DNA of 64,000 nt from positions 11,087,331-11,151,330 of the forward strand of contig CM021318.1 of NCBI GenBank assembly GCA_010645155.1. Direction: 5' to 3'. The position numbers were made by a program, and so were the translations under genes. The notes below the pieces were generated by a model. That model saw only the letters and a list, made by a program, of their open reading frames with translations. It ran no database searches and was not told the origin of the DNA. Shown piece after piece: positions 2,691 to 64,000 of the stretch (positions are counted from its first letter, which is position 1; every line of letters begins with the position of its first letter). Source of the DNA: Tigriopus japonicus (Eukaryota; Arthropoda; Copepoda; Harpacticoida; Harpacticidae).

Positions 2691-3794
2691 AGGTCCAATT
2701 AAACGTCCAATTTCACATGAAAACGCGTTTTTATATGGATGGTGCTTGTGCACATCATTATTGCCGTTCCCCCAAATACAATGGCCGCCAACATCGATAT
2801 GTCCGCTTCATTGTGACTAGATTAATCAGAAAAGTCTTGTTCCACTTCCCCCATCAGGAACAGTCAGGGCCATGCTATTGGGACTTCTGGCTCATTGTTG
2901 CCAAGGTTTATTGTCCTATATTTTCTAGGCTCTTAGAAGCTTTCGTCATATTGGGGACAAGGAGGTGTGGCACAATTCTAACACTATTCTATCACAACAC
3001 TGTATGAAATATTGCAAATATTATGTTTGATCATAGTTCTTATGAATTTTAAAATGCGAACTGTCAAGTGTCTTAGGCAATATCTTCGGCATGCAATACC
3101 CTCAAGGAATACCTTAGCCGTCGACTTGAAATGAAATTTTGAAGAGTGCTTCCATCTTGCATAAGGAATTGCAACTCGCCCTATTGCAAGATGTGTGTCT
3201 TTTGTGATGACATACTTTTGGGGCGAGGAAACTTGGTTATACCAAGACGCAATCGAATCACTTGAGGGTGATGAGTGGGGCATACGACAAGCCAGAGATA
3301 ACGAGAGATTGGGGTCCGACTCAATTGCAGGAATTGAGCAATGGAGCAATGCAACATTTCCACACCACCTTCTGTAGCTACTACAACGTACAGTAGAAGC
3401 AGTTGGCAAGGTTTCCGCTCCTTTCCGCATGTTTGGATGAGCAAATAAGGTACCAATTTCGAGGAGATCTCTCTTCCTATTCTTCTTACTCCATATCTTG
3501 CGCCCGTTGCAAAGCCAGTCTTGGGTTTGGAATTTGCTGTCAGGGAAAGCAATTTTCCAGCAATCGACCCAAGCTTGAAAATATGTCTTTGTTCCAATGA
3601 TATGCCTTTTCTCATTGCGTCTCTCTCTTTCTTTCTTTCTATCCTTCTCAAGAACAGGGAGAAAGAGATTGAGAAAAATTGTGCAACGCAATTTAGGCGA
3701 AGCCAAACCAAGGCCCAGCTAATAATGAGAAGAAGACATCCGCCAATTTGTTCCACTTTGAGAATTTACGGCCAGTGACAAGGCCTAGTTTTTG
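2691..3794. other. 3' flank of the aminopeptidase, no gene recognised
   Basis: This stretch should contain the aminopeptidase 3' UTR. I see no convincing AATAAA polyadenylation signal in the first 400 bases; an ATTAAA at 2698-2703 is too close to the stop codon. Open frames here, including a 240-codon one on the minus strand, overlap one another in several frames and have no recognisable domain. No semaphorin exon is visible here. Confidence 0.5.
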
Positions 3795-53185: not shown

Positions 53186-55741
53186 ATGTCTTCGCGCGCT
53201 TCGTCCGTGTCGTCGTCGTCATCGCCGCGTAGTTCTCGCCGATCCTCGCGTCAACGCCCTCAACCGCACAGCCACGCCGAAACGGCCAATCATAGTAATC
53301 TCGTCAAGGGCGCCGCCAAGTTGAATTCGGCCGAGGCCGGGGGATCCGCCCGAAATGCGGCCTCGCCGTCTTCGGGCCGCACCACGCGAGCCGGTGGCGG
53401 CGGCGGAACCGCCGCGCTCACCCGCGTCCATCATAGTGAGGAGGAAGAAGAGGCCTTGAGTCCATCCTCCGACGAAGAGGACGAGGAAGAAGAAGAAGAA
53501 TCGGTCCAAGTTCATGATGGAGCCGCGCAGTCGCCGGAGGCCGTTTCGCGTCGCGGTCGGCAGCGCGGAGAGCGCTCTCGCACCACGCGCAGTGGCGGCG
53601 CTCCGGCCAGTCCGCAAATTGATCGAGTGTTGAAAGAGCGCCGAAACAGCCGCTCGCCCGCCTCCTCCTCGGCGTCTTCGGCCACATCCACGTCGCGTCC
53701 CCTGATTAACGGCCGCCGCACCTCAACCCGCGTGCCCGGGGGCAATGCTCCACCTGAAGACGAGACCGTATCCGTTAGTCGGACTAGTAGTCGCGCTAAT
53801 TCCTGGGTTGAAGTGTCGGACGACAGCGTGGACGAGGCCGAAGACATGCGAGACCTGCCCACCGTTTCCTCCAAACGTCGACTCAAGTGCCGATTGTGCG
53901 GAGCCTTGGCCGCCAATCGAACCCGATTGAAAAAACACGCGCTCGTGAAGCATTTTCGCTCCGATATTAGTGCCGAATTACCCCAGGCTCGACCGTTCAA
54001 GTGCCCCTTTGCCCAGTGTTCCTTTGAGGCCGTCACCGCTTGGCTCCTGCAACGCCATTACGAGACCGAACACGACGTGATGGAAAAGTTTATGGCTCAA
54101 GTGGAGACCCCCATGGACAGTCCCGCGCCATCGCCCGTTTCAATCAATCTCCCCAATGGCACCAACGGTTACCCATCGCCTCCGAGTTCCGTGGTGGCCA
54201 AAGATCTGACCGAGATGGATCCTCTTCCGGAACCGCAGACCCGGGTTCCGCCCCTAGAAAGTGACCCTCCTCCGCCGGAGCCGCCCAACAGTGCCTCTGT
54301 GGAAGTTATTGGTGAAACCGATTCAGTGCCCTCCGCTAATGAACCTAAAGAGGAGCCAGTGACGGAGCTCGCCCAGCAAAGTGAGCGAACGAACGATCTC
54401 AAAGGGAAAACCTTGTCCGTGGGTCCTTCGGAGTTAGGTCATAATTCGGTACCACGTGACTTTGACGAGTTCAAAGTCCACGTCCAAGAACATCTCAAGA
54501 CTTTAGCCGGTTCTTGTGCCCAGGCCTTGGATGAGTGCTCGATTCAATGTGTTTGTGGGCAAATTCTACGGTTGCCCACCCCTTTTCACTGGCAGTACCT
54601 GATTCAAAAGCATGTCGAGCAGGAGGGTGAAAGCGGAGTTCCAGGACATTGGTTCACTTGTGAAATTGTGCAAAAAGAAGGGTCTGAATTGTTAACCCAT
54701 TCAGACGAGCCTGCAAAGATAACCCCATTGGGAGTCAAGCTGACCAAAAAAATCGATCCTCCCGACCAAGAAAAGCGCCGAAGCAAACGGATGCTCGTAC
54801 GTGATCTCGAAGAACCAGCCTTGAAAAGACTTCGAGAGCAAGACAGTGACGAAGATGAGAACGAGCAAACTGACGAAGAATCCGTTGCCGAGAAATCCAA
54901 GCCTGTCGTGCCTGAGCTCAACCTGGATCAACATATCAGAGATCTGATGGCTACCCGTGTCCCGGGGGATATCTTCCTCCAAGATGGACCGTGCTTCCAG
55001 ATGGCCTTCGATCTTCCCATGTGTCATATGTGCAAAACGATGCCTCCTTCCGAACGGAGAGCCCTCCTTACCCAAGGGAACTTTGCCGATGAAACGTGTG
55101 ACATTAGTTGCTGTTTCTATGCATTCCGAAAGCTCCGGTGTAGTAAAGCAGGACAGATTTGTGTAGCGGGCTATCTTGATCCGCACAAAGACCCGAAGCC
55201 CGCTGATGTGGCACTCTGGAGTGTCGCTCCTCGAGAGAAACCCGATATTCCAATTGACAAGGTCAAATATATCCTAGGCCTGATTGGTGACCAGTTTTGC
55301 GATATGGTCCAACAGGAACGCAAGTGTCTTTCCCTGAATATGTCCGATAACAAGGCCATTGTTTGGAAGCCAGCGGTTAAAGGTGTGCGTGAGATGTGTG
55401 ATGTATGCAAGACCACGTTGTTTAATTTCCATTGGACCTGCGGGCGATGTGGAATATTTATTTGCCTTGATTGTTACCAGTTTCGGAAAACGGGCTTGGT
55501 GAACGAACATCTAGATTGTAAGAGTGATGAGACCGACGACTACGATTGGCCCTTGTGCAATAATAGGGAACCTCATTGCATGGAGAGGTTGGTTATGGCT
55601 CAGATCATCCCTCAAACGTGTCTACTAGATCTTTCAAAACTCCTTCATAATGCTCGCGAGAAATGGAACATCACCCAATTTTGCCATAGTTCCGATGAAT
55701 TTGCTGAACTTTATAGCGACGACGGGTTCAAGAATTTCGGG
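53186..55741 (+). CDS. KDM3 (JMJD1)-like zinc-domain protein with C2H2 modules, exon 1
   Basis: Exactly 852 codons from ATG to a consensus GTGAGT donor, phase 0. The ATG has A at -3 and an in-frame TGA 33 bases upstream (53153-53155). The N-terminus is Ser/Arg-rich and disordered with an acidic run (residues about 91-104). A two-finger C2H2 module (CRLC...PFKCP...HYETEH) spans 53882-54110, and a degenerate one lies near 54456-54630. From about residue 590 to 852 the sequence matches the KDM3/JHDM2 H3K9-demethylase zinc region. C613 and C616 open it, then the VKGVREMCDVC stretch with C738, C741, C752, C755, C760 and C763 around FNFHWTC and CLDCY, then C791 and H797, then QIIP and a REKWNI helix. 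In KDM3 enzymes this domain precedes the JmjC catalytic domain and supports demethylation. Nuclear location is inferred. The C2H2 modules before it are not a KDM3 feature I know. Confidence 0.92.
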
Positions 55742-55830
55742 GTGAGTACTCTTAAGCTAGTTTTTAGCAACGCTGCTATCTTTTATGATCGTTTTCATGC
55801 AACTAATCTGACAAATTTTATCCCGTTTAG
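55742..55830 (+). other. Intron 1 of the KDM3-like gene (89 bp)
   Basis: Starts GTGAGTACT and ends ATCCCGTTTAG, with a branch-like CTAAT about 25 bases before the end. Splicing is phase 0 and joins two long open frames. If retained, the frame shifts and stops at 55997-55999, giving a 937-residue protein that ends soon after the KDM3-type domain. Confidence 0.9.
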
Positions 55831-58800
55831 GACCGCAACAGTATTAAGAGAGCCTCTAAGCTGTTCCCATGCCCGTTTTGTGAAGAGGTCACCTTCAAAT
55901 GGCAATCCGAGTTATTCAAGCATTGCGTGTTTGTCCACTTCAAAGATCGCATTTGGGCGGAATTACCCGGACCGACTGAATATCCGGCCAAGTGTGTGAA
56001 GTGCGACTACGTTGGTCGAAACCGAAGTGCGTTGTCGTTGCACACCGGTCTCACTCATAGGGTGGTTGTGGCTTGTATTGAAGAGGGTATGAAGAATCCC
56101 GATTTTCTCATGAAACGGCCCCCGCCCCCGTCGGTCCGTGCATTATCAGTAATCAAGCCGTTCAAGTGCCCTATCTGTCCTCTGTCTATGTCCACTTCCA
56201 TGAAAGACTACCATCTCTGTAGCCACTTCCAAGACCTACTCCAAAAAGAGCTTCCAACTCAAGTACCTTTTGCGTGCCCCAAGTGTAGATATGTCGCTTT
56301 GGATGCGGCCGCTCTTCTGCATCATTTCGGGGTCACTCACAAATATGTTCAAAAACACTACAAACAGTATTTAGAGACCAATGGACAAGACGATGAATCG
56401 GGTGAGATTGACTTCCAAGAAATAGAGAATCACAACTCAGGACTTCCAAAGGCTGTTGATGCGGATTGTCGATTGTGCGAGAGCTTACCTGTGATGAAGA
56501 ATGCCAATGACCTGTACAAACATTTATCCGAGATTCACTTCAACGAGACCCTAATCAAGGAGACTCCAGATCCAAGTGGCGAGGATAAAGTGATCAAGTG
56601 CAATAAAGACCAATGTGACTTCACAGCCGTGGCCAAAGTGTCTTTGCTCATTCATTTGGGAGTTCAGCACAGACTCGCTGTCAAGCTCTACTATGATGTG
56701 CTTGGAATTACGAGCGACTGGCAGAAAGTTGAAGTTCTTTCATGTCCTCGAAGAAATTCCATCACTGGTGGCCAAGAGTCGAAACCAGTGTGCCATCTCT
56801 GTAAGGAAGCCGTGGCTCCGGATCAATTAACCGTACATCTGGCAAATACTCATTTCCAAGATAAGATCGCTCAACTGTCGAAGGAGGCACCTTTCGGATG
56901 TCCCATGTGTCCACACTTTGCTGAGACCTACCACAAACTCTTGAATCATTATGGGAACTATCATAAGGTTTTCAATCCAGAGGGGAACGGGGAGCCTGAA
57001 ATCAAAGTTGAGGTCAAACCAGAAGCGATAAATCCAATTCACACCGAAGGGATTGACCTAGATGACTCTTTGAAAGAGGAATTCCTCGAAGATCAATCAT
57101 TGATGAAAGAAGAGACTTTGGGGGGAAGTGCGCCTCTTGACGATGGCTCTGATGGTGGGAACAAGAAAGGAGAGGAGATACGGTGCCTTATGTGCGATGA
57201 CTGCAAGGTAGTGGGATCCTTCAATGGAGATCTTATGAAACATCTAATCGACACGCATTTCCGTGACCGATTGTTCAAATCTGTGAGCTTGGGACAAAAT
57301 GACGGCAACAAGAGATACTTTTGTCCCATATGTCCCTACGACCACCAATACCGATACTCAGTGGCTCGACACTACGGGTCCAAGCACAAAATGGTCAAGA
57401 TTTGGTACAATGAGGTGATTGGTTTTAAAGAGCCTCAGCCTCCTCCTCCAGTGTCGGTCACAACGAAGCGCCCGCCCAACAAAAGTCAACCCTCACCTGG
57501 TCCCTCCTCTTCCTCCTCCTCCTCCTCGTACAACCATGTGCCTTCTCAAACGAGATACCATCCATATTCAATGCAAGAAGAAGGCTTTGGAAATGGACCT
57601 TCCCGTCTTGCTTATCATCCCTCTGATGCAACTCATCCCGGTAGTAATTCTCAACCAACCCCATCACATTCAGCGAATCTCAATCCAGCAATGCAAGCAA
57701 CTCAATCTGCAGTAAGCCAGCATCTGAAGGCCTCCAAGCCCACCACTCCGCACCAAGTTCCTCAATATGAGCAACAACAACAACAAGCTTATGGTGGCTA
57801 CAATCAGACCACCGCCCAGTCACAAATATCCGCATATCCTCAACAATCAGCGCACCAACAGGGTGTGAACAACTTTGCCCAACAGCAACAACAACCGCCT
57901 CAACTTCAACAACAGCACCAGCAATATCAACAGCAGAACGTCCCTACCTTTGTGTGCAAGATCTGCTCTCACCACTCCAAAGATAGACAAGACTATCTTC
58001 ATCATCTAGCTCTCAGCCATTACATTCAGAAGCTCTTGGCCCAAGTGGTTCCCGTGGGTCCGCCATTCAAATGCCCTCATCTTGGATGTCCGACGCAAAC
58101 TGGTGACAAAATGAGCATGGCCATGCACTACGGCGTATTTCACCAAATTGTTCTTTATTACCTTAACGAAGAGACTCCTCGACCTCCTCCAGCCGCAAAT
58201 ACTCAACTAGCAACAGGGGAAGGGCAACCTCCAAATCTTGGGGGAAGCCACCCTTTTGGGAGTCCACCTCCAGTACCTCCTCAAACTGGATCCTCTCCAG
58301 GACATCCAGGAAACTCCTTTCCGCCTCCACCTCCTCCTCCTTCTTCGTCTTCGTCTGCTACTGCTCACCTTACGCCTGCAACCCTGTCAGGAGATCAGAA
58401 TCAACTGCCACCGCCCTCTACTCCCTCGTCTCGAAAAGCGCCTAATACCAATTCCAAATCAAGTGCGACTCCAGCGGGTGCCAAGGGGGGTCAAGGGCCT
58501 CCGGCCAAGAAGGCCAGGGTGATTGGAGCTCATATGCCCCCGTACAAAGCTATGAGCGAAGACAAGAAATTCCCCAAGTGTAAATTGTGCAGCTATCGAT
58601 ACTTCACTCGTTTGGATTTGTGCAGGCATTTTGTAGACAACCATCTTCGTGTTGGGCTAGTCAACGCCGTTCCTCCAGGTCTAACCTCTTGCCCCGTTTG
58701 TAGAAGTACTTATGAGAAGCGTCAAACTCTTATTAGACACTTCATTTGGAGTCACCAGGACCTGGAAAAAATGGTCATGACCGAAACCGGCTTGAAGTTG

Positions 58801-61800
58801 TCGGAATTTGTTCCGACATCTCGAGATCTAGATATTATGAAAATGCGCTCTGAGCAAAGGCAAGGGGGCACAGGAACCGAGTCCAAAGCCGAATTCAAAG
58901 ATCTCTCTGATCTGTCATTGCTACCAGTGAATCTTCAAGTGGACACCAAGTGCACAATTCCCACCTGTGAGCTTTGTGGTGAGGAGTTCACCACGAGTGT
59001 GAACAAAGTCCGTGATAAGGGCGTCCATCTGCTTAGTCACTTTCGGGAACAAGTGCTGCAATTACTGCCGGCCTCAGCTCCTTATATTTGTCCGGATTGT
59101 CCTTACAAAGGACGTGATGTGATGGACTTGTGTCGACACTATGGCCTCTCCCACAAGTATGTGTTCACGTTGATGCAAAAGGAGTTGGGAGATTTATGGA
59201 CCATCGATGAAGTGGAAAAACAGGAATGTAAAATCTGTAAGAAGGTGTTTATGAACGGGCGGGCCCTAAACGACCACTACTGTGATGATCATTATTACGC
59301 GTCAATCTCTGCAGATTTGTCCCGCGATCCGCCTTTCAAGTGCCAGAAATGTAGTTCTGAAAGTAAAACATTTGCGGCCCTTGTGCGACATTACGGTTCC
59401 AAGCATAAAATGGTGAAAGACCTCATGGCCAAACTCAATCCGGAGCTTCAATCACCCAAAAAGAAAAAGCCTCAGCCGAAAAGGTCCAAAGCCAAGCAAC
59501 CCGTTCCAGCGAAGGGTAAAGCTGCTCTGCCATCAAGTTCTGGACAGTTGCCCACAAACTGTTTGCCTCAACATCCGCTGCCTCCCCAATTAGCTAAACC
59601 TCACTTACCCTCTCAGCCAATTCCTGGACCTGTTGGTCAACATAATCAACACCCATTTGCCCCAGGGCCACAGCAACACCATCCAACATACCCATCTCAT
59701 CACAATGGAAGCAATGCCCCTGCACATTTCCCACCCCAAAGTCATCCATACCCGGGTCAGATGCCAACAAATCATCAGCAACAACGTTTCCATCACATGC
59801 AAAATCCCCAGCAACATCACACTCGCCCGACTGGACCACCCTTTGGTGGTCAGGTCCATGCAACTCCTTATCCTCAGTCTCCACATTCCGAGCATCAGTA
59901 TCCTACTCAGCCTGCATCACAACGGCCCCCCTCAAGTCAAGTTCCAACTTATCCACAGATGAACCAATCTGAAGGCATGCCGAACAACATTGGTCCGAGT
60001 TCTGTCTCTGGATCGTCCTCAAATCAGAACAACGCCTCAGATGGAGCATCGTCGACGTCTAGCACTTCAAGTAAAACCAAAGGCAAAAAGGTGGACAGTA
60101 ATGCAAATGCATCGCCAATTGCTTGTCCCCATTGCAATCATACCTTCTTGAATGCCACACATTTCATCCGACATGCAAGTGATAAGCATTTCGGAGAGCA
60201 GATGAAGCAAGAGCTTCCGAATTTCCCTCCGTTCAAGTGCCCTGCTTGTCAGACCTTTGAAGGAAAGGACCTTAAGATGTTGGTCCGCCACTACGGCTTA
60301 ACCCATAACATCGTGGTGCGCATGCTCAACGAGAACATTGGAAGGCACAATTGTTATGATGAGTCGATCCTGAAACAATATGAAACCTCTGAGTCGAATC
60401 GCGAGTCATGCCCTCTTTGCAAGAACCATTTCTCGGGGCGATACATGCTGCTTCGACATTTGGCAGACTGTCATTACCGAGAACGGTTGTGTGAAGGCAT
60501 CCCTTCGGGTGCAGATTTATACAAGTGCCCAGCATGCACTCATGAGTCGAAAGACAAAGGTGGTTTTGTGAGACATTATGGACTGGTGCATAAAATGGTC
60601 CAAAAGTTCCTGAGTGAGGAAGGTGTTGTTCTAGAAGAACCGATGAAGAAAACACCGGTCTCTTTGAAAGGCACTCCATCCCAGACACCCACCCCAGATA
60701 TGGACCATTCTGTGAGCAACGATGGTTACCACTTTGGGGGTGGTCAAAACGTCCCGGGCAATGGTTCGGCGTACAATTCACCTCTAGAGGTGAACGTTAA
60801 TCAGCCGCATTCGATTGGGTCAATGCATTACAGTCAACCTGGAAGTGCATCGCAATCACCTCACCAAGGTCAGATGATGAGTCCGTCTTTGAGATCATTG
60901 TCGAGGTCAAGCTTGGAGCAAACGGCCTATGGACCACCACAAGCATATTACAGTCAAGGTTCTGATGGCATGGTTACCAGTCCTTACTCCTCTCAAGGAT
61001 CTCAACAACCAACACCAAACATGGATATTAAATCTCCTACCTATGTCAATCAACAACCCATGTCTGTGCCTCCGAGGACCCCTCAAACCCCAGGATCTCA
61101 AGGTGCTGGAACACCTCAACCACCAATGACTCCTCAAGAGAGACCCATGTCAACGCAGAGCTCTTCATTTTCAACGGGTATAGTTAGTCCAGGGCCCAAC
61201 CATCAGTATTCGGGTGTGCCTCAACATCATGATCCCAATCAGGGAGGTTATCCACCACAACCTCAAGCATACAACCCGTCAGCTCAGAGTTCGTATCCAC
61301 TACAAAGACCTGTGATTCTTCAGCCTCAGCCACAGCAACACCATATTCCACCCCTTCAACGGCCTCCAGCTAACATTCCACCTCAATCTCAGCCAGCTCC
61401 TTCTGCTCCTCAAGCTCCGGGAACCTCCAAAAGTAAGGCCTCTGTGGGAGCCCCGGCCCCTGATCCATTCATAGAAGCCCCCGAGCCTGGAATGGAACGG
61501 CCCTATTTGATCAAGTGTCTGACGTGTCAAAACATGGCCAAGAACAAAAGTGATTTCTTCCGTCACATGTCTGAGAGACACTACAAGGCTCAGTTGGCCG
61601 CTGAGTTGCCGTCGGAGCCTCCTTGGAAGTGTCCAGTGGGAGGTTGCTCGTATGAAACCAATGACAAACACATTAGTCCCTTAGTGAAACATTATGGCAT
61701 AGTACACAAAATGGTTCAGAAACATCTGACTGGGATTGTGGGCAAGTACGTGCCCAGCAATTGGAAAGACTCAGCCAAATCTCAAGGTTCGAGCAATGCT

Positions 61801-64000
61801 GTTGTTCGCAATCCAACCCCACCCCAACCACAGCCGCAACCGTGCACTCAGCCACAACCTCAACATCAAGTTGGGCAACAATCATCGTCATTCAATTATC
61901 AGCACGATCAACAAGCTTTCTCTCAGTCTCCTGTTCAGACGCCAACTCCGACGAATCCTTCTGGCCAAGACCAAAATTCGTCCATGACAATGTCCAATCA
62001 AGCATTGAAGGTCAAATGTCCTTTTTGCGACATGATGTTTTCGGCAAAGTATACCTTTCACCAACATCTTTGTGACAAACATTTCAAAGATGCTTTGGCC
62101 GCAAAGATCCCGTCACATGCTCCGTGGAAATGCCCGTCATGCGACTATATTGCAAAGGATAGCAAACAGTCCTTGGTTAGACATTACGGAATGACCCACA
62201 AGGTCGTTCTCGAGTTGCTAAAACAGGCTTTGCCTGGATACTCTGTGGATGAACACTTCAAGCAAGAAGCTCATCAACATCAACAACGCCAGCAGTCTGC
62301 TCAAGTCATGTCTAGACAGCCTGCTCCACCTCAGGCACCTCTTTCGCAGCATTACACTCAAACGCCCCATCAACAACCACAGCACCATGCTCCGCCTCAA
62401 GCTCAGCAGTTACAGCCTCCGCACTCTCAATCTCCGCATTCTCAGCTTTTACACTCTCAGTCTCGCCCGCCTCATCCTCAATCCCAGCATCCTCATCCAG
62501 CTCAACAATCTATCCATCAGATGGCTCACGAAGCACATCATCCAGGGGCCCATCAAATGCCTCGTCAAATGATTAATCAAGCGCCTCATCAAGTACAACA
62601 AGGACACCATCAGGCCTCTCATCAGGTTCCTCATCAACCGGCCCACCAACCTCCTCATCAACCTCCTCATCAACCTCCTCATCAACCTCCTCATCATCCC
62701 CCTCATCAACCCCCTCATCAACCCCCTCATCAACCCCCTCATCAACCCCCTCAACACCCCCCTCATCAAAATCACCATCAACCTGTCCACCCACCTCCTT
62801 CTCATCAGGCTCCTCGTCAGCCCCATCCTTCTCAACAGTTGCATCAAGGACACCATCCACAGCTGCAAGTTCATCAACATCCTCACCAGCATCAGACACT
62901 TCCAATTCAGACGCCTTCGGCTCTGCCAGCGCCACAACCGCCACAACAGCAACATCATCATCATCACCAACAACAGCACCAACAGCAGCAGCAGCAGCAG
63001 CAATTGCAGGCACCGCCACATCCTGGGCCTATCATGCATGGAAATCAGCCCAACTATTACCAGGAAAATCGTCAACATGTACCTTCAACTCATCCTCAAA
63101 CCCATCACCTCCAAGCTCAGCATTACCAAATGCCTTCCGCTAGCTCACTAGACCAGCAGTCTACGGCTCATCAGGCTCCTCCAGGCGCCCTACCCTCGAT
63201 GAACAGCTTCTATCATCATAGCGGAGAGTACCACCATCACCCTCCTGCTCCCGCTGTGCATCACGATCCTCACCACTACCATCATGGAGATCTTCGATTT
63301 GATCACCAGATGGATGGAACATACGATCCCAGTTTAGCTAGCGAGCATTCGTTGGAAGACATTCGATCATTACCGACCACACCAGCGAAAAGCGAATCGG
63401 CTCTGTCATTCGTCTCGGACACACCCACGTTGCAAGTGGTGAGTGCCGTGGCCACGGCGGTTCAATCATCCGTCCAAGGAGACGATCAAGAGAGTGCAAA
63501 AGTCAAAGCCCCCACCCGGATTTGTGAAATTTGCGGAAAAGTGTTTGAGGGAAAGAACCGGGCCGTGTTAAGAGTCCAACATTTGGCTCTCCACTTCAAA
63601 GATCAATTGCTCGAGAACCTGCCTGCCACCAAGGCCCCATACAAGTGCCCCATAGACGGTTGCAACTATTCCACCAAGCATAAACCAGATTGGGCCAGGC
63701 ATTATGGATCCGTACACAAGTTTTTGGATAAGTATATCAATCAATATTTTGAAGAGAACCCAGAAGCTGTGCGGTACAATCTTCCCTCCAAGGAGAATTC
63801 GTCTTCAACTCCTGGAACAACAGATAATATGCCCTCCTTGTTAAAAGCGCCTATCCCCAATATGAACGAGATCTTCTCAACAGCCTTAAGTCAGCAGAAC
63901 CTCACCGAGCGGGATTTGCTTCCTTTATCAATGAACGACGAGGCTCAGTTTGATCTTCTAGATCCAATACTGACTGATAACGTCAAAGAGGAGCCATTTG
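55831..64000 (+). CDS. KDM3-like gene, giant exon 2: array of 14 paired C2H2 zinc-finger modules, 3'-partial
   Basis: Open in one frame for 2,723 codons to the window edge, with no stop. It encodes 14 copies of a module: finger A (CxxC...HxxxxHF), a short helix ending in LP, a P(F/W/Y)KCP linker, then finger B ending HYGxxHKxV. Positions are 55861-56088, 56161-56376, 56461-56706, 56782-56976, 57178-57423, 57946-58173, 58570-58791, 58957-59190, 59218-59448, 60115-60342, 60400-60624, 61498-61743, 62005-62238 and 63514-63759. Linkers are disordered and rich in Gln, His, Pro and Ser, with a basic NLS-like KKKKPQPKRSKAK near 59460. The last residues include VKEEP, a SUMO-site pattern. The same module in exon 1 ties the two exons to one gene. 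C2H2 fingers usually bind DNA or proteins; which applies here is unknown. No JmjC domain appears before 64000. Confidence 0.9.
62650..62769 (+). repeat. Coding minisatellite, 12-bp units encoding Pro-Pro-His-Gln
   Basis: About ten 12-bp units inside the giant exon. The first block uses CCTCCTCATCAA and the second CCCCCTCATCAA, a synonymous change shared by consecutive units. It therefore grew by unit duplication within each block rather than by independent substitution. It lies within a broader His/Gln/Pro-rich linker (62239-63510) that also contains a (CAG)n/(CAT)n stretch near 62950-63003. Confidence 0.9.

Follow-up and report, generated by a model that had tools for sequence, protein, structure and literature searches.

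The window analysed here, a stretch of 64,000 nucleotides of the Tigriopus japonicus genome (GenBank GCA_010645155.1; contig CM021318.1, here C4:11087331-11151330; assembly of 194.85 Mb in 158 contigs), carries towards its right end a plus-strand gene that encodes a KDM3-type zinc domain, a long array of paired C2H2 fingers and, beyond the window, a KDM3-type JmjC domain. A five-exon model, completed within the next 10 kb to the right (L009), comprises 4,743 residues with a single terminal stop; all five exons start in phase 0 and all four introns are GT-AG. Exon 1 (53186-55741) opens with the ATG at 53186, spans the protein start, the first C2H2 pair and the zinc domain, and is followed by a GTGAGT donor after 55741 (phase 0); more coding exons may lie upstream. 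Intron 1 (55742-55830; 89 bp, GT-AG, phase 0), delimited by its splice signals, is closed by an in-frame TAG, and the frame reopens exactly at 55831. The junction reads GGG/GTGAGT ... TTTAG/GACCGC, so that the 55741/55831 join proposed in an earlier note on this DNA is sound at the level of donor, acceptor and intronic stop.

Exon 2 fills the remainder of the window (55831-64000) as a single open frame and ends past it at 65694 (L009:1694), giving a total of 9,864 bp, or 3,288 residues. When the frames are read from stop to stop, 947 residues lie over exon 1 and the 2,723-residue frame that follows is still open at the window end. Exon 3 (65763-66113), exon 4 (66416-67270), which carries JmjC, and exon 5 (67340-67945), which encodes the end of JmjC and the stop, also lie on the plus strand (numbered as 64000 plus the L009 position). 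They were placed by donors, acceptors and phases, and their junctions match the protein record P0085. Approximately 0.7 kb separates the array exon from the JmjC exon.

Zinc domain, finger pairs and JmjC domain

The KDM3-type cysteine-rich zinc domain (54992-55495, plus strand) aligns with ten other rows, namely those of seven named animals (two insects, a decapod, a barnacle, a mollusc, a fish and a cnidarian), the sister-lineage protein P0038 and two paralogues from the same genome (paralogue B on C4 and a second one on C27). This alignment bears out the KDM3 zinc region that the earlier note had recognised in exon 1. In Pfam, no match to the zinc domain or to a finger passes the cut-off, and both calls rest on alignment and pattern. 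The zinc domain is followed by an LXXLL motif (LSKLL, residue 816), as in KDM3A, KDM3B, JMJD1C and insect Kdm3 (KDM3/JHDM2/JMJD1), which share with the focal protein the zinc domain, a C-terminal JmjC and the Fe(II) triad. In contrast to these conventional enzymes, the focal protein carries 36 C2H2 fingers in 18 pairs and a far longer zinc-to-JmjC distance, with approximately 3,670 residues from the zinc motif to the JmjC HxD compared with 480 in Neodiprion P0001. The latter also has Tudor, PWWP and DUF7030 domains, none of which was found by Pfam in exon 1 of the focal gene (PWWP_KDM3B and DUF7030 were looked for in exon 1 only). Since P0111 (Palaemon) and P0195 (Amphibalanus) likewise lack these domains, they are not defining for KDM3.

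All 18 finger pairs are N-terminal to JmjC. Pair 1 (53888-54073) precedes the zinc domain and the other 17 reside in exon 2, all on the plus strand. Within the window these are pair 2 (55870-56058), pair 3 (56167-56340), pair 4 (56467-56670), pair 5 (56791-56964), pair 6 (57184-57387), pair 7 (57955-58143), pair 8 (58579-58755), pair 9 (58966-59154), pair 10 (59227-59406), pair 11 (60124-60306), pair 12 (60409-60591), pair 13 (61516-61707), pair 14 (62017-62199), for which a structure was predicted, and pair 15 (63523-63717), in agreement with the one module before and 14 after the zinc domain described earlier. Pairs 16 (64228-64416), 17 (64678-64851) and 18 (65368-65544) lie past the window. 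A regular-expression count gives 37 fingers and 18 pairs, compared with means of 1.2 fingers and 0.007 pairs over 300 shuffles, and the array is therefore not a product of chance; the 37th finger (residue 451) is unpaired and is excluded from the 36. All eight zinc ligands are invariant in every one of the 18 pairs, while pair 1 shares 21-33% identity with pairs 2-18. The gaps measure 15-21 residues within pairs and 24-569 between them, the spacers between pairs being rich in Q/P/H/S or acidic, and no TGEKP-type linker between fingers was found in the model protein. The nearest finger style is that of CTCF in the PDB and, below cut-off, finger 7 of ZNF462 in Pfam.

Extension to the right together with a JmjC search, as had been proposed, revealed the last three pairs and then the KDM3 JmjC domain. 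The Pfam search of the genome gave 17 JmjC matches, one of which (C4:11154364-11154606) is located approximately 3 kb past the window on the same strand. All seven PDB matches of P0085 are KDM3B or JMJD1C, the best being a solved KDM3B (E value 1.4e-131), and the JmjC domain shares approximately 59-66% identity with the KDM3s of the insects and malacostracans under comparison. The H-D-H triad that coordinates Fe(II) is intact (H4410, D4412 and H4541). By analogy with KDM3A and KDM3B, the JmjC domain would demethylate H3K9me1/2, the marks that KDM3 enzymes are reported to remove (PMC7280979). What had been called a demethylase-derived domain is indeed of KDM3 type, but the term was an understatement, as a JmjC domain with an intact iron triad is also encoded.

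Array and JmjC in one reading frame

Several records connect the array directly with JmjC. P0085, whose contig measures 5,034 bases, corresponds to model residues 3309-4743 with five differences in 1,435 residues (99.65% identity); it joins exons 2, 3, 4 and 5 exactly as modelled and covers the last four pairs and JmjC, without exon 1. P0086 (MAKER model 'Tk03194', 1,226 residues) combines three pairs with JmjC, its identity over the JmjC region being 87%. Array and JmjC also share one uninterrupted frame in P0033, P0036, P0079 and P0038, the last of which includes the zinc domain as well: P0038 has 22 pairs, 14 before and eight after its zinc domain, in the order array, zinc domain, array, JmjC. 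The homology of P0033, P0036 and P0079 stops immediately past the distal His, directly behind an APHQ sequence that coincides with the focal intron 4 site, and these three may therefore be genomic frames. In the sequences of these records, array and JmjC are joined in one reading frame. The alternative that they belong to separate transcripts, which the earlier note had considered, is contradicted by the exon 2/3/4/5 junctions of P0085 and by the one-frame relatives. That the fusion is an artefact of assembly or gene modelling, as a large exon with low-complexity stretches might suggest, is highly improbable and already contradicted: the same architecture with colinear pairs recurs in other records, P0085 is a spliced record of the same gene and a second array-bearing KDM3 exists elsewhere in the genome, such that an artefact would require a shared misassembly in all sources.

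The combination is rare among the KDM3 matches listed. The JmjC part of the full-length query yielded 74 proteins in the eligible length range, and finger pairs are present in three of them (P0033, P0036 and P0038); the other 71 long KDM3 matches, from insects, a millipede, mites, molluscs, an annelid, cnidarians and vertebrates, lack pairs. With a conventional-length query, 1,489 proteins were found and pairs are present in two of the 120 matches listed (P0085 and P0086), decapods, amphipods, a barnacle and chelicerates being among those listed without them. The premise that ordinary KDM3s carry no C2H2 arrays thus held for 71 of 74 long and for 118 of the 120 shorter matches listed (1,489 found). 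A part of the array as query retrieved 11 proteins, all with 7 to 18 pairs by regular expression, two of which (P0033 and P0079) reach JmjC. No paper describing a KDM3 with a finger array was found among the titles and abstract openings listed from the open-licence PMC literature.

When the pairs of 12 focal-lineage array proteins (P0033, P0036 and P0075 to P0084) were scored against the 18 focal pairs, the focal order from pair 8 onwards was kept in all 12, as far as each reaches (P0079 has no called pair 10). Agreement is poorer for the pairs that precede pair 8, with two best matches out of order in each of nine of the 12 proteins. From the order common to these relatives it follows that each of the later pairs has had a long history of its own, rather than having arisen by recent multiplication of one repeat.

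Searching at the protein level with the JmjC exon recovered three KDM3-type genes and a partial copy, and a search with the zinc domain led to the same three genes. Paralogue B (C4:2164283-2154070, minus strand; L020-L022) comprises a 2,522-residue frame with 20 fingers that flank its zinc domain on both sides, followed by JmjC-coding exons with an intact triad. The pairs of paralogue B could not be matched one by one with focal orthologues, since best scores were 24-95 and the second best mostly close; the comparison of paralogue B with P0038 was convincing only for the last pairs. In a JmjC tree of 38 rows, all KDM3-type and none from another JmjC subfamily, the seven array rows, all with an intact triad, form one clade (support 100/99) that splits into a focal lineage (the focal protein, P0086, P0079, P0033 and P0036) and a B lineage (paralogue B and P0038). 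Within this sampling of KDM3-type rows, the clade lies inside the arthropod rows and joins the barnacle and malacostracan KDM3s weakly (82/79). It is retained at 99/99 without the Oryzias, Nematostella and Anopheles rows and at 100/99 when the C27 paralogue is also removed, the join to other crustaceans being recovered in neither of these two reduced-row trees. The array may have a single origin that preceded the split of the two lineages or may have been gained twice; the JmjC trees are compatible with one origin.

The third gene (C27:686801-682832, minus strand) is a conventional KDM3 without any C2H2 finger by regular expression. Its branch is very long, and a clade with the array rows was not rejected by the approximately unbiased test (p-AU 0.23). 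The sole genome-wide match to Tudor_KDM3B (C27:704076-704183) is located approximately 17 kb upstream on the same strand, and the C27 KDM3 therefore probably has the classical architecture, the two forming one putative gene by proximity and strand. The iron ligands are altered, as HxD reads HFE and the distal His is replaced by Cys (SPCQ). Some JmjC enzymes accept Glu in place of Asp at this ligand position, and HxE also occurs in the fish JMJD1C row of the alignment; a likely inactivity would thus stem from the loss of the distal His rather than from HFE, which makes the C27 KDM3 a candidate pseudo-demethylase. A partial second copy of the degenerate JmjC region (C27:678519-679230, minus strand) lies a few kb from an N run and represents either a duplication or an assembly artefact.

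A putative self-docking demethylase

We consider it rather probable that the focal gene specifies one KDM3-type H3K9me1/2 demethylase of approximately 4,743 residues with a built-in multivalent C2H2 docking array. In such an enzyme, the linker from the zinc domain to JmjC would have been expanded by a single 9.9-kb exon with 17 two-finger modules, the eighteenth standing before the zinc domain. Each pair would fold as a compact two-finger unit strung on spacers, and the units would make many weak contacts with chromatin, be it DNA, the nucleosome or partner proteins. Rather than relying on the N-terminal Tudor/PWWP readers of long KDM3s, the enzyme would dock itself, with the array providing multivalent targeting instead of one long DNA-reading helix and JmjC performing the chemistry. 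The combination of a KDM3 with a large multi-finger platform, as envisaged in the earlier note, stands as an architecture, and a recognition role of the platform can be suggested.

The observations that weigh against this reading concern, on the one hand, the continuity of the transcript. The join of exon 1 to exon 2 in the focal lineage is present in no record examined, and its occurrence in mRNA is inferred from splice signals, phase and the uninterrupted frame of sister-lineage P0038. Because both boundaries of exon 2 are in phase 0, splicing could bypass it in frame, which would leave a conventional KDM3 of 1,455 residues. In addition, P0085 and P0086 share their first residue, an internal Met of exon 2, which could mark a shorter isoform without the zinc domain. 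By alternative splicing or an internal promoter, the locus might thus produce a conventional KDM3 from exons 1 and 3-5 alongside a finger or finger-JmjC isoform, with the giant protein as a minor product. We regard this as unlikely, as the open frame of P0038 leads through array, zinc domain, second array and JmjC and P0033, P0036 and P0079 run from array to JmjC with no stop between. The Met common to P0085 and P0086 follows closely on a Q/P/H repeat, which would be a usual break point of models and assemblies. This repeat is a long spacer of HQPP units (window positions approximately 62570-63080, residues approximately 3100-3270), and the Met behind it may reflect an internal start or an assembly break.

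On the other hand, they concern DNA reading and the fold of the pairs. Across 28 fingers, drawn from 14 of the 18 pairs, conservation at the helix positions putatively in contact with bases (-1, 2, 3 and 6) did not significantly exceed that at six other positions (mean difference 0.044, one-sided p 0.19), which leaves sequence-specific DNA reading unsupported. Pairs 1, 2, 5 and 7 had been dropped for having fewer than three orthologues, defined by a score of at least 150 and 40 above the second-best pair. Both fingers lean towards contact conservation in pairs 8, 13, 14, 16 and 17 and in the opposite direction in pairs 3 and 18, the rest being mixed or equal. The predicted structure of pair 14 is compact (pLDDT 94.4, pTM 0.78), and among the best 50 rows of a comparison with solved two-finger arrangements none matched well (query-normalised TM at most 0.38).

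The pairs might instead be protein-binding modules, which would turn the array into a scaffold that gathers partners or multimerises the enzyme with little contact to DNA. This proposal deserves serious weight, even if we hold it to be somewhat improbable. It would account for pairs that lie 24-569 residues apart with no TGEKP-type linker, for a predicted pair that is compact and, taken whole, fails to superpose on tandem fingers bound to DNA, and for contact positions whose conservation is not significant; yet 16 of the 18 pairs carry a net positive charge (mean +4.3), and the top fold and sequence matches are DNA-binding fingers, CTCF first, although such matches are generic for C2H2.

The role of the array as a docking platform appears most likely by analogy with REF6-type plant demethylases, which also combine JmjC and C2H2 fingers in one polypeptide and set a precedent for self-addressing. 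REF6 itself belongs to a JmjC subfamily other than KDM3. It is described as an enzyme for H3K27me3/2 whose four fingers form one cluster (residues 1223-1360) and bind CTCTGYTY motifs; without the fingers it is reported to be active in vitro and to fail to restore the mutant plant, and C2H2 fingers are described there as rare in histone demethylases (PMC7105484). Whereas REF6 has this one four-finger cluster, the 36 fingers of the focal KDM3 come as spaced pairs, most of which lie in the zinc-to-JmjC interval; this protein is not a member of the REF6 group and possibly works like REF6. PRDM9, KRAB-ZNFs, CTCF and ZNF462 resemble the focal protein as chromatin proteins with many C2H2 fingers. The arrays of PRDM9 and KRAB-ZNFs turn over rapidly. 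The focal array differs from canonical poly-finger arrays in its spaced pairs without TGEKP linkers, in an order common to relatives and in its fusion to a demethylase.

In this gene, a conserved animal demethylase family has acquired 18 finger pairs, of which 17 lie in the interior of the catalytic module, with the active site kept and the gene duplicated. KDM3A is reported to require both zinc and JmjC domains for homodimer formation (PMC7280979), and the approximately 3,300 residues inserted between them here thus offer a direct test of that module. The architecture hints at an enzyme equipped with a large docking platform of its own, and it offers a natural setting in which to ask whether enzyme-borne fingers can address H3K9 demethylation. 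The array KDM3s sit beside a conventional paralogue with altered iron ligands, and we tentatively propose, while leaning towards doubt, that in this lineage, probably of copepods, the only intact KDM3 active sites belong to two giant self-docking enzymes, the conventional Tudor-associated KDM3 having become a pseudo-enzyme by loss of an iron ligand. Were this the case, KDM3 removal of H3K9me1/2 would be addressed by the array's own recognition code. We know of no animal histone demethylase with such a self-addressing arrangement.

Remainder of the window and other paired-finger frames

Positions 1-53100 of the window are gene-poor, the longest closed frame among those listed having 244 residues, and a tRNA search of the window found none. 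Elsewhere in the genome, a 1,676-residue frame (L025, C15:1935001-1945000) holds 30 C2H2 fingers with gaps that mostly alternate between approximately 17 and 32 residues; it represents another paired-finger protein, and no C15 site is among the 17 JmjC matches of the genome. The same style of spaced finger pairs is seen in frames on C2 (L027) and C1 (L029) that, by eye, resemble BTB proteins.

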